A stretch of DNA of 64,000 nucleotides from Progne subis subis. Lineage: Eukaryota; Chordata; Aves; Passeriformes; Hirundinidae. The stretch lies in assembly GCA_022316685.1 (NCBI GenBank), contig JAKJHU010000054.1:3508501-3572500 (forward strand), read 5' to 3'. Below are positions 6,501 through 36,500 of this stretch, piece after piece; position 1 is the stretch's first letter, and every line of letters starts with the position of its first letter. The notes under the pieces are model-generated. The model was not told the origin of the DNA. It ran no database searches and saw only the letters and a list, made by a program, of their open reading frames with translations. The position numbers were made by a program, and so were the translations under genes.

Positions 6501-9500
6501 ACTAACTCTTCCTGCTTATCAAAGAGGGAAAATTATATCTGTAGGTGGATGTTCCTCTCATCTTGGTAGAAGGTTGCACCATTTGAATGTTGCCATGGGT
6601 TAATATTGAATTACTAAATTTAGAATTGTTTTAGCAGTACACAGTAAGACAACTGAGAAATAGGGACGTCAGCCATCTAAAACTTCATGTGTTGTATTGA
6701 CGGAGAATAAAGGGGCAGTTTTCTGTCAGTGGGAACCAGCACTGTCTTAGGCTACAATGTGAGATGTAACCAAAAGGATGTATTCTATTCCCATCTTCAT
6801 AAGCTGTTAAAACAGGTGGTGTGATATTTTTTATCTCTGCTCCATGCCTTATCCTTGAATACTCTGGGGGCTATCTCTGCTATTGGGCCATGAAGGTAGT
6901 TTATTAGTTGAAAGGCTGCTGATCAGTATGAGCCTCTTGGCTGTTCAGTAGTCCAAGAAATGCACAATGCTGCCACTAACCCCATTTTTATTCTGTCGAA
7001 CCAAGTAAGTAAGGATCTATAAATATTTAATATTTAACACGGACTTTCTGAAGTTTTTCTCAGCATTACAGAAAGTATGAAGTGAGCACTGTATGAAATG
7101 GAAACTTACTTGGTAAATTCCTCTAAGCGCTGGAAATATGTGTTTGTTGTGAGACATCCTTAAAAACTGTTCTCTCTGTTCTCAAGCAGGCCCTTCCAAA
7201 ACATCAGGGATAGATGACAAAATTGATCCTGGAAAAAGTTTCAGAGGTAGATCTTTTGCTTGTATTTTTCCTCACATCTGTTTTAGAAATTGAATGTGTG
7301 AGTTTTGCTTTGCACAGCTTTGCTACTTGATTTGCCATAGAACTGAGGGTATTGGAACTTAAACATGAACAGAAATGAAAATTATGGTTGCTTTAATTTC
7401 CAGCTGTCCAAGTAGAGAGACATGTAGACAGGAACTTAATTTCTTACTTTTGATCACTCTAAAGCACTAGTTATTTGTATGAATTGATATGTTTCTCAGG
7501 AAATTCAGTCTGTTTCATAATGGCTTATAAAGTTTAACAAAACCCTGCTTTATAAATAGTCAGTGCAACATAAGTATTTTTTCAGTTCAGTGTGAGGTGA
7601 ATGAGCACATAAGGAAAAAAATAAATGGAAAGTCTGTGTTAGGGGAAGCAGTTCCTTCACCGAAACTCCGTAAGAGCTGAAATGCCTTTACAAAAAAATT
7701 GCGCCATTTTTTTCAGCTGTTTACAGTTCACATTAAAAATATTAGTTTGGCCATTTGCAAAGACTAGAAGATACTAACTTGCATCTTAACACCATGAATT
7801 TTGTTGTAAGGTCAGAATGTTCCTGCTGCCATGCGAAAACAGCCTTCTGAGCGTTGTTCATATAAACAGGAAAATTCTGGAATTTCTCCTGTGAAAATTC
7901 TTACTTTGTATTGAAAGATTTAAAAATTGTGAAAAATATAGTACATATTTTTACTGTGGTAACTTTTTACTTTACTGGTAAAGGAAACCATCAGCTTGGT
8001 AAAATACTCAAGCATAGAGAGATCTGAAGGAAGTTACTTTCCAAAATGCAAAACTACAGCTTTACTCTGCCAGAATAAAAATAAAATCTGTTCCTTCATA
8101 CACTGCTACTTAATTTGGACATAGTTTCTGATACAATTAGCTTCACTTTGTTTAATTGTAGTGCAAATAAATTTAAACTGCTCTTTCTCATGCTGCGTGT
8201 TGATCACCTAATCCTGATTATCTTGTTGCACTCTGGCTGAACTAAAGAATTGTGATCATGAGTTTCCCTCCCATGTTTCATTGTTGGCCTTGCAGCCTGT
8301 TCTGGAAATCATCATAGCACAGCAACCATGAGTCTGTAGAGATGTAAAAAGATACATAATCTATGGGGACACACAGCCTTTGTTTATATTTCCAGTAATC
8401 CTGAGTAACAGAGGGGAAATACTTATGATTGTATTAATCCTGCAAAGGCAAGCCTATGGAATTTCCTTCAGTCATAGCACCAACTGTGCAGTGCTGCAGG
8501 TGCAGTTTAGCAAGTGTAATGCTCCCCTCTTTGCCTTAGTGTGGGATTGCTCCAAGGCTCATGGTGACATATCTTTGCTTCTGTTTTTGTTGCATGCTGT
8601 GAGTGCAAGGGGCATTCTTTGACAATGCTGGATTAAATGCACAGGCATGGAGTGTTTGTTTGAAAATCTTATCTGTGTCCATCATTCAGCAGTCCTGTTT
8701 TTGTCTTTCAGCTTCCTCTGAGCCTGACTCGTCAGAAACAAGTGAGGATTCAGAGGTTGAGTTCAGTAATGGAGGTCAGTTCTCACTGATGAAATCTCAT
8801 TGATTTCAGTTGGTATTTTTATATCCAAATTGTGTTTTCCAAAGCCTGCATTGGTTGGCACCGAAGGAAGAGAGTTGTGTGCTGGTGTTGACTGTACTTT
8901 GGGTTGTGCACTACTTGGTAAATGAACCTGGTGGAAAAGTGTTAGAAAACGATATACAATATACTGCAGCATATTAGACTTTCTGGGTGGTTTTTAAATG
9001 ATATCTGACAAGCAATTTGTATCTTTTGCATAATTTTCGAGCATTGGTAATGAAAAATAGTCATTGAATGGACAAGATGTTACAGCATTCATTCATTCTG
9101 GAGACTACCATTCATTCATTAAGACCACCCAATCTGCAATTTATACAGTAAGCAGGGCAATGTGAGACTTCTGGCATTTGGGACAAAGTGGACACTTCTG
9201 GTGTTACCTTCAGCACGTTACAATGCAGCATGGAATTAACTCCAACATTGCCTCAACAGAGAAGTTGTTATGTGACGAGTCACTAAGTTCTGTGTATATC
9301 TAATGGCCTTTATCACAGAAGTAAAAGTGCTCTGAAAAGGTTTTCTCTGACAGAGTATAACAGAACTGTATAGGTACAAGGTATGTCAGTGTGTGATAGT
9401 ATTTTTGGTAAGTAAACCTTACCCTGGGTCTCCTGGGTACCTGTTTTTCTGTATGTCAAATTAGTTTTCTTTGTCTGCACTAACCATTGTGTTCTCTGAG

Positions 9501-33500: not shown

Positions 33501-36500
33501 TGGACACGTTAATCTGTTTGCTTTTATAAGGTTCCATACTGTCAGGAATATGTCTTTTGGTACAATATTTGTGTTTGTATTCGGAATTCTGGAAATTAAT
33601 ATAAAAATTCTTATGCATCTCCTAACAGGTGTTTTGCTTGGTAATTGTCAGTTTTAGCAAAAGTGACTGAAATTTTGAGAGCTGTTCTTAAGAGATCATT
33701 AATACTAGTAGGCTGTTGAGCATGGTTTTTTTTTTTTTTATGTTTGGTCAGGAAGGCATAAATACAGCATTACTAGAGGAGAATATTGAGGAGTTGGTGC
33801 TGCAGAAGCTTTTGTTAGATACGTTCTCTCAGTAGAAAAATCACCTAAGCTTTGATTGCCAGCAGTTTTGGAAGTGAAGAAACACTGATTTTGAGTTCAG
33901 ATGGAAAGGAAAGGGAATAAAATATTAGGATGACAGAAGTTTTAGTTGAGGTTGTAATATATAATCTCCAGTTTTTTAGACTTATCTCAGGGCTTACCTG
34001 CTTAGTGTTGCTCTGAGTTGACTTAGTTTATTTTGAGATAGCTGGTGTGTAGTTAGATTGCCATGCTTTGCATCTCACAGATTATTCAGACACCTTTACT
34101 TCTGAGCTTCCTAAATTGTATTGAGGATATTGACTCCTATGTTCACTTTGAGGTTCACACACAGAAAGTGGCATGTCTCTGTGGTATTGCAAGACCGGGT
34201 TAAAACACAAAATGAATGTGAAAAGTTTTGGAGAAATACCTCTCATTTGCTCTAACGAAGAAAGAGCAGCTTTTGGTAGTTGCGGTGCTGCTGTTCGGGC
34301 ATTTCAGAAGACTTTGCACCTTTATTATTGAAATCAAATATTAGATAACTGGATAGGAGACAGGAGGTGGGTGATCTATCATAAGTAGCTGCAGAACAAC
34401 AAAGGTTCATGCACCCAGAAAACAGAATAGACGCTTGATTGAGAAATCTGTCTCATAAGGACTTCCAGTATTTTACATAACCCTGAGAAGTTCGAGATGT
34501 TTGAGTTGGAGGTCCTTCCTATATGTCTTGATTGAACAGGTATCTGAAGTGGCCTGAGAATAATGAGCTGTGCTCTTAGTTTTTTGGAAACAGGAAAACA
34601 AAGTGAAAGGCAAAACAATTTTAACCAGTCTCTGGTAAAATGTTTGATAGATATCCTTAATCTCATGGAAGTGAGGTTAGATTTCAAAAAAATTCTGAAC
34701 CAACTATTTGAGGTTAAAAATATTATTGCTGAAAGGATTGTACATTGTCAGCAAAAATCTTTTTCCATGGGTTTTTGCTTTCTTAGTAGATTTTATTAAA
34801 AACTCAGAAGCTTCAAGTTGTGTCTTGCAGTTGTGTTAAATTATTTTAACTGGGAAAAACGTCCCCTTGTCTCACTATGACAGTGATGGGAAATATATAT
34901 GGTTTTCCCCATTTTAGCACGCTGTTGAGCACAGGTTTTGTCAGCCGGCAGCATGCTTGGAGTTGCTCTGTGTTTTCCATGCTGAGCTGTGTGGTTCCCA
35001 TTTTATTTCCTCAAACAGTTCTCCTGTGGCATGGTGATGGGAATAGGAGTGTGCCTAGTACCTGAACATCAGTGTGTATGCACTGTGCAGGTTGCCCCTG
35101 CTGTGTGTTTTCTGGAACATGTCCCAAGGAGCAGGGAAAGACATAAAATTGAGGAGACTATGGACAGATGGGGAAAGTTTTCAGGATTGTTATTTAACTG
35201 GGATGATGAGTTGCATATATCATAAGATGTTTATATAGGTATAGAAAGAAGCCACCATCTCTCTTGGTGCCCACAGGAAAACTAAACTGCTTCTCAGAGT
35301 GTAAGTTTAGTTTTGTGGTAGGGCATCAGCTTTGCTAGTGAGCACAAAGTGTGTGACACAAGAATGTTTTTACAATATTTGGTCAGGGTCCAAGGGGTTA
35401 ATAATGCTGACAATCAGATTAAAAAATCACACTGGTTACCTGATAAACCCTCTGAATTTTGAAATACTCTGTAGTCCAATTTATTAATAAAATACAGAAG
35501 TAGCTAAAAAACCAGTGTGCAAATCAAAATGTGAGCCGATTTATGATTTATTTTTTTTCCGATTTCCTATTCTCTGTGTATCCACCATTCCAAATAAAAA
35601 TGCCTGTAATGTGGTGTATTTGATTATTAATTCCTCTAGTGTTTCCGCTGGAGGGAAGTGTGGAGTCCCTAACGCCAATTGAAATAACCCCCAGGTTTTG
35701 GCCTTGGAAGGACATGCTGTAATTCTACCTCTGCCTCTTCTCCCTTATACCCAAATTCTCCTGGTTTCTTCTTTCCTTGTTAATCCATTGGTTGTGGGAC
35801 CGCAGTGACCAGACCTGTCTTCCCTATAGGACACTGACCTTACCTGCCCTGTGCCACAAGGTCACTGGATGCTGTAAATCATACTTAAGCCTGAGCAAGG
35901 CACACCATCGCCCCTTTGCACTGGATTCCCTTCGGCACCTGGCATAAACCTTGCTGGAACTTGATCTTATGCAAAGGGCCTTCTTGCCTGTCTTTTGCTG
36001 AGCTAGTGTGTGGATGTGAGAGCTCGATTGCTTGCCTAAGTTGCTCCAAGCAGCTTTTCCACTGGAGAGGTTGACTGGGGCCTAGGCAGAGGCTTCACTC
36101 CTAAAAGACACCGTGTTACAAATGGCGCCCAACGTGGGGCTCGAACCCACGACCCTGCGATTACGTCTCGTGCTCTACCGACTGAGCTAGCCGAGGGACT
36201 AGAGTGTCCACTAAAGATCCACACAGTATATTTGGCCAATGATTGTGGGATTTGGAAACTGAGAAAAATGAAGCCTTGAAGCTTAGGTAGGGACGTTCTC
36301 AGGAACTTGTTAAGGAGGAGACGTAGGCTAAGCTGGGTGGGAGCAGCTTCTCCTAAAATTGCAGCAACCACCAATATTTGGAACAGTATTATTTATATGC
36401 TTTTGTATGGTTTCTTTGTAGTATGGTATGACATTCTTTCTGCCTGTTCTCCCTCTGATAAAAACTAGCTTGAATTTTAGAGGAGATTGTTTATTGAGTC

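Follow-up and report, generated by a model that had tools for sequence, protein, structure and literature searches.

The linker between the first two I-repeats, R1 and R2, of the transcription factor TFII-I contains in mammals a small set of GTF2I cassette exons, each present as a single copy. In GTF2I of the swallow Progne subis subis, the same interval holds a tandem array of exon pairs, and this raises the question of where the array came from, which birds share it, and what it might do to the protein. We consider these questions for a 64,000-nucleotide stretch of the P. subis subis genome (assembly GCA_022316685.1, contig JAKJHU010000054.1, forward-strand positions 3,508,501 to 3,572,500), which we call the window; coordinates are those of the window, and the exons described all lie on its forward strand. 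We find seven exon pairs in the window, and arrays of at least four pairs in most passerine species sampled and in none of the non-passerine proteins.

Architecture of the exon array

Seven "a" exons and seven "b" exons occupy the R1-R2 interval of GTF2I from 8712 to 33127. Each a exon is 63 bp long, b1 through b7 measure 111, 106, 108, 102, 108, 108 and 105 bp, and all 14 exons are bounded by an AG acceptor and a GT donor; the scan used for a exons requires TTTCAG...GTCAGT flanks, and copies without these would escape it. Thirteen of the 14 (seven a and six b) are of phase 1-1, the exception being b2, which has one extra base and is shifted accordingly. Its junction with a3 creates a stop codon (...GEECQF*), such that including b2 would disrupt the protein, whereas a transcript that skips it stays in frame. 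The intact copies total 361 residues. These results bear out the original prediction for this DNA, made from the letters alone, which had placed seven 63-bp and seven 102-111-bp exons with splice sites inside GTF2I, called all but one of them phase 1-1, traced them to one ancestral pair with symmetric phases, and given up to 361 as the number of linker residues from intact copies.

The copies differ in character. S-type a exons, with four or five S/T-x-x-D/E motifs each, are a1 (8712..8774), a3 (18243..18305, with five CK2-like motifs) and a7 (31683..31745); V-type exons, with one such motif compared to two in the ostrich exon, are a2 (13955..14017), a4 (21787..21849), a6 (29005..29067) and a variant, a5 (25717..25779; CELDVTVE). 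Among the b exons, b1 (10427..10537) and b5 (27501..27608) are acidic, with charges of -8 and -9 and an acidic run that no KR core follows, and b3 (20063..20170) is strongly basic (KRKRRR...RRKSK, charge +5). The core is KRLK in b4 (23576..23677), KRPR in b6 (29872..29979), which is close in sequence to b2 (15749..15854), and KRR in b7 (33023..33127; charge +3), the last exon before R2. By charge-hydropathy, the array is predicted to be disordered (H 0.341 compared to a boundary of 0.475).

The duplicated units comprise both exons and their introns and extend over ≈7997..33573 in a self-comparison of the window by blast, with alignments as long as 3898 columns (89.8% identity), far beyond chance. 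Successive a exons are unevenly spaced, 2.7 to 5.2 kb apart, and all seven units have diverged; being adjacent copies on the same strand that carry flanking intron, they constitute a tandem exon duplication array. The b2 region finds seven matches in the 1.17-Gb P. subis subis genome, every one inside the GTF2I array, and thus no second locus or haplotig of the array in that search. False duplication of a single unit during assembly could draw on the extra base of b2, which may be a sequencing error. The barn swallow (Hirundo rustica) counterpart of b2 is in frame. The copies are, however, too different for this explanation: units 1-5 are 6.8-16.6% apart overall, 35 of 42 exon pairs among all copies differ by 22-35%, the spacings are unequal, and the window contains no N. 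The check proposed with the original prediction, for a single unit in independent assemblies, comes out the other way in barn swallow, where two records carry the same seven pairs. We reject an assembly artefact as hardly credible.

Similarity to known sequences confirms GTF2I as the host gene. The genome has 11 matches to PF02946, all on one contig, of which six belong to the window and the other five lie upstream of it; TFII-I is the best relative of the one window I-repeat tested against the PDB, and the proteins nearest to the window carry a GTF2I annotation. The linker is bounded upstream by R1 (371..577, contig 3508871-3509077; a PF02946 match in an open reading frame) and downstream by the first exon of R2 (38125..38190; 22-residue peptide, boundaries counted by hand), with R2 itself matching PF02946 at 40608..40796. 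The five upstream matches we read as GTF2IRD1, as three of them, tested together, find GTF2IRD1 structures as their best match. Two further exons precede the array. One, of 78 bp (3896..3973), has splice dinucleotides and a 26-residue peptide that recurs unchanged in a barn swallow protein, and by its similarity we take it to be the equivalent of the mammalian Tyr248 exon; the other is a 57-bp cassette (7190..7246; 19-residue peptide) with a counterpart in one barn swallow prediction, P0121, and none in a second, P0122. An element of ≈390 bp, possibly mobile, is shared at 83% identity by 4152-4543, before the array, and 9657-10045, inside unit 1. No known structural RNA is found in the array introns at Rfam gathering scores; the sole match is tRNA-like, lies outside the array at 36126-36196 on the minus strand (30.6 bits, gathering score 29), and may be the head of a short interspersed nuclear element.

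Distribution among birds and age of the array

Relatives were drawn from three protein searches, each giving its best 120 proteins, and the proteins retrieved were scanned with profiles made from known a and b exons. The first search, restricted to proteins of up to ≈970 residues, yields mostly non-passerine birds and turtles, and the second and third yield mainly passerine proteins of ≈890-1500 residues; Acanthisitta (New Zealand wrens) has no protein among the best 120 of any of the three. Closest to the window are P0121 and P0122 of barn swallow, with the seven pairs in the same order. The window differs from P0121 at 7 of 147 residues in the a exons, 18 of 244 in the b exons (b2 up to its shift) and 14 of 365 in six I-repeat exons, and a1, a3, a7 and b3 are identical in the two species.

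At least four a and at least four b exons are present in one predicted protein in 39 of 47 passerine species, suboscines included, with four to nine pairs per array and the highest count in Melozone; Zonotrichia albicollis is one of the 39. As these counts come from single predicted proteins, true pair numbers may be higher. The eight species with fewer, several of them represented by short or partial predictions, are Vidua macroura (three pairs), Corvus cornix and Zosterops lateralis (two pairs each), Copsychus (one pair), Turdus rufiventris (two a, five b), Lepidothrix (one a, two b), Illadopsis (two a, one b; partial) and Cyanoderma, where none was found. Non-passerines have at most one a and at most one b exon before R2 in 118 of 120 proteins (both exons in 107, b without a in 11), with a single pair in ostrich, in Nestor, the only parrot species sampled, and in Chelydra. 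The array pair is homologous to this single pair, which in ostrich and turtle proteins reads as a 21-residue peptide followed by DDxDYLPPNKRPKN.... The two exceptions are hoatzin, with two pairs (P0246), and the cuckoo Phaenicophaeus, with one a and two b exons. Four or more pairs therefore occur in both oscines and suboscines and in 0 of 120 non-passerine proteins, where two, in hoatzin, is the maximum. The description of the array as lineage-specific in the original prediction was framed too narrowly, since sampled oscines and suboscines have it in common.

Two cuckoo GTF2I proteins also contain, as judged by eye, a second copy of R2, accompanied by a pair in Cuculus canorus (P0160) and by a b exon in Phaenicophaeus (P0168). 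This expansion of the R2 region is probably independent of the passerine array, at the same place in the gene.

The S-type exon provides a marker for the age of the array. The motif SEDS[EDG][VAG]EF occurs in none of 120 non-passerine proteins and, in a slightly looser form, in 88 of 127 passerine proteins. A 12-residue core of the S-type a exon is identical in barn swallow and five of six suboscines tested (Pipra, Pseudopipra, Chiroxiphia, Manacus and Myiozetetes), and the suboscine Pithys has a variant of it. Since the core is common to suboscines and oscines, at least one V-type and at least one S-type unit would have existed before the two groups split. We infer from these shared sequences a single origin before the oscine-suboscine split, in which tandem duplication along the passerine stem would have amplified an ancestral symmetric phase-1 exon pair of GTF2I. 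Two observations weigh against a single origin. The 12-residue pattern, exact or close in five of 11 oscine proteins tested, is not found in the other six, and in a tree of pair units the suboscine units form one clade with a support of 0.95, a grouping that separate expansion or concerted evolution would also produce.

The tree and the exons themselves also reveal characters that go with position. The first, third and last units of different oscines cluster by position in many species, with support that is modest (≈0.75-0.91 in the larger clusters). Corvid units fall mostly together, and unit 1 of the starling lies near unit 3. Among 18 arrays, from 17 species plus the window, 16 have their most basic b exon in third place, a tie in Pithys being counted. 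The pattern-based order of a exons is S V S V V V S in the window, barn swallow, Zosterops, Sylvia, Motacilla, Haemorhous, Agelaius and Passer, and four further oscines have similar strings. Exceptions that speak against position-specific character are Ficedula and Myiozetetes, in which the most basic b exon lies elsewhere, and Acridotheres and, again, Ficedula, which fall outside the S/V order.

Divergence of exons, introns and I-repeats

A comparison of the units along their length reveals blocks of 0-4% divergence that alternate with blocks of 15-35%. For every one of the 15 pairs of units 1-6, the longest identical run, with gaps skipped, is longer than any obtained in 200 shuffles (121-397 bases compared to shuffle maxima of 65-158). 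For five tested pairs, 0-3 differences are found in the 188 aligned bases (200 columns) before exon a and 14-22 in the 63 bases within it (Fisher p ≤ 1.4e-8). When 149 overlapping 63-bp segments along the unit are considered, none reaches the minimum pairwise divergence of exon a among units 1-5, and six exceed exon a by mean. The divergent block is wider at exon b, with ≈100 intron bases included on each side. The simplest reading of these patterns is that gene conversion would have homogenised the intron blocks and been mostly kept out of the exons, the copies being retained with parts of their introns made alike and their exons held apart; constraint on the intron blocks is the alternative to conversion.

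Several results temper a reading in which the exons were protected and functional. The closest copies, a4/a6 at 1 of 63 bases and b2/b6 at 9 of 105, mean that exons were not wholly shielded from homogenisation. The pooled ratio of nonsynonymous to synonymous change (dN/dS) among copies is 0.64 for a and 0.92 for b, the latter indicative of weak constraint on b. Retention of open frames is weak as proof of function, given that the chance of no stop in a simple neutral simulation is 0.17 (seven a exons) and 0.22 (six b exons, 13 changes each assumed).

Strong diversifying selection on the exons is likewise unsupported, as their silent sites are as diverged as their other sites. The pooled proportions of synonymous differences, 0.35 (a) and 0.28 (b), are near those of nonsynonymous differences, 0.25 (a) and 0.26 (b), and the exons thus look old and unconverted rather than driven by amino-acid change.

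The array occurs in a lineage that shows rapid change in a protein otherwise almost constant. With ostrich as the reference and six I-repeat exons (≈363 residues) compared, non-passerine bird proteins are 0-6.1% diverged (median 1.65%; 113 proteins, among which P0078, without a species name, was placed by likeness), and seven turtle proteins are 2.2% diverged. Passerine proteins are 10.5-20.7% diverged (median 13.5%), ≈8-fold more than other birds, for 121 of 127 proteins, six having been dropped with an I-repeat missing or too different; in all these counts isoforms of one species enter repeatedly, and the lists are of best-scoring proteins. In alignments to TFII-I structures, ostrich is nearly identical and barn swallow clearly less so. 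Relaxed constraint and adaptation are both possible causes of this acceleration.

Relaxed constraint suggests a different account of the array, in which passerine GTF2I would have lost constraint and pairs accumulated neutrally, to give a linker with most copies included constitutively and little regulation. The elevated I-repeat divergence of passerines relative to other birds is as expected from it, and so are a dN/dS near 1 among b copies and the presence of all seven pairs in both barn swallow predictions. Neutral accumulation is harder to reconcile with position-specific character that persists across many oscines, with the identity of a1, a3, a7 and b3 between the window and barn swallow, with intron near-identity that ends at exon a, and with predicted isoforms that vary (see below). 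We regard it as unlikely, and prefer duplication in the passerine stem followed by retention of copies with distinct characters.

The remaining I-repeat exons of the window are at 45502-45696, 50952-51140, 55454-55657 and 58967-59152. Between the R3 and R4 exons lies a GC-rich 65-bp minisatellite (48854-49586; 11.3 copies, 97% matches) with several frames open, and the R4-R5 linker region encodes, at 52372-52611, a 13-residue stretch that resembles the V-type form of exon a and may go back to an ancient repeat of the I-repeat module.

Predicted splicing and a possibly variable linker

The predicted isoforms suggest that the array may be spliced combinatorially in cells. We surveyed 85 database-predicted proteins from 14 species, picked from listings and reduced to strings of a and b exons, and find more than one string in 13 of the 14. 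Predicted isoforms lack a alone in Haemorhous and Ammospiza, b alone in Chiroxiphia and Cyanocitta, and whole pairs in Manacus, Myiozetetes and others. Database isoforms of this kind usually rest on RNA sequencing (RNA-seq) junctions. On the other side, this variety is one of database predictions. RNA-seq reads are easily misplaced among copies that are nearly identical, and mapping is uncertain in manakins, whose copies are very alike. Some donor sites are also poor. All a exons have the donor GTCAGT and score 3.6-4.4 with a donor matrix (maximum 8.7), and b exons range from -0.0 in b1, the weakest (GTAAAA), and 0.2 in b3 to 5.2 in b2 and b6.

Five predicted proteins of finch-like passerines (P0130, P0132, P0136, P0139 and P0140) have a 27-residue extension, VSKFKAVPVLH...FLLFLK, before one b exon. 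It is absent from some isoforms and reads like upstream intron and splice tract.

Tandem exon copies that differ from one another within one gene invite comparison with Dscam and other clusters of mutually exclusive exons, in which case each transcript would contain one a and one b exon. The GTF2I copies resemble such arrays in having diverged in character between common flanks. The repeat unit here is, however, a pair of symmetric cassettes, nothing forces exclusion when 13 of 14 exons are frame-neutral, and four to nine pairs stand together in predicted proteins of 39 of the 47 passerine species, so that the array appears cumulative. Mutual exclusion is accordingly a very improbable reading of these predicted proteins. 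Exon repeats that lengthen a flexible segment are also known from the titin PEVK region and from tau; GTF2I differs from these in that its copies vary in charge by position and its linker lies between I-repeats.

The nearest precedent is mammalian GTF2I itself. We take the 63-bp exon of the array to correspond to mammalian Gtf2i exon 12. According to PMC5343945, Gtf2i exons 9-12, which distinguish the alpha, beta, gamma and delta isoforms, are in-frame cassettes that alter the protein, with isoforms that differ in activity and cassettes that change PEST length, in line with the original prediction, which placed the array in a linker that varies in mammals. The gene is the same and its exons are likewise in-frame cassettes; what sets passerines apart is multiplication of the pair, to seven here, and divergence of the copies in charge and phosphosite motifs.

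Inclusion of any subset of the 13 frame-preserving exons would leave the frame intact, and the linker can therefore vary. Each a exon would add 21 acidic, phosphorylatable residues, and each b exon an acidic run and, after it, a basic patch whose strength depends on the copy and which some copies lack. The R1-R2 linker would then vary in length, in the number of phosphorylation motifs, and in the number and strength of basic patches. A basic region before R2 of TFII-I is reported to contact DNA. We infer regulated splicing in cells and an effect on the protein, such that the linker would count modules of three kinds, acidic, phosphorylatable and basic, and its variation would probably tune how TFII-I enters the nucleus, contacts DNA and chooses its partners. 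Taken as a whole, an explanation that combines duplication in the passerine stem, retained copies, conversion of introns and a tunable linker is one we hold to be likely. A stronger proposal, that passerines share as a derived trait a cumulative array with charge and phosphorylation coded by position, spliced in a tissue-specific manner and evolved alongside the acceleration of the I-repeats, is put forward tentatively, as a possibility slightly short of even.

Tandem exon duplication is a known kind of change; what is new here is the cumulative use of paired cassettes, their spread in passerines, and their company with faster I-repeat evolution. The original prediction knew of no description of the array, and we find none among the literature matches listed, as judged by title or start of abstract; the exons as such are nonetheless already contained in database gene predictions. 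The word GTF2I does not appear in the main text of PMC4377847, and the gene named as positively selected in a tree swallow study is GTF2IRD1, not GTF2I (PMC6825141).

Few known genetic traits set passerines as a whole apart. According to PMC10016047, a copy of the growth hormone gene is the sole gene known to occur in every major passerine lineage and to be absent from other birds. The GTF2I array resembles it as a genetic change across sampled passerines and not other birds. As a candidate it differs in kind, being a set of repeated exons within a transcription factor gene rather than a whole-gene duplication. The array also offers a system for gene conversion and selection on neighbouring exons and introns, and its natural series of one, two and four to nine modules a way to study the tuning of a transcription factor by the length, charge and phosphosites of its linker. 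In humans and dogs, social behaviour has been linked to altered GTF2I dosage or expression (PMC13115841), which makes avian GTF2I attractive to follow up; nothing here connects the array to behaviour. With the array, one important regulator may exist in many linker versions. If the stronger proposal above is true, a central, signal-responsive transcription factor from the Williams syndrome region would have undergone a rebuilding in passerines, the largest order of birds.

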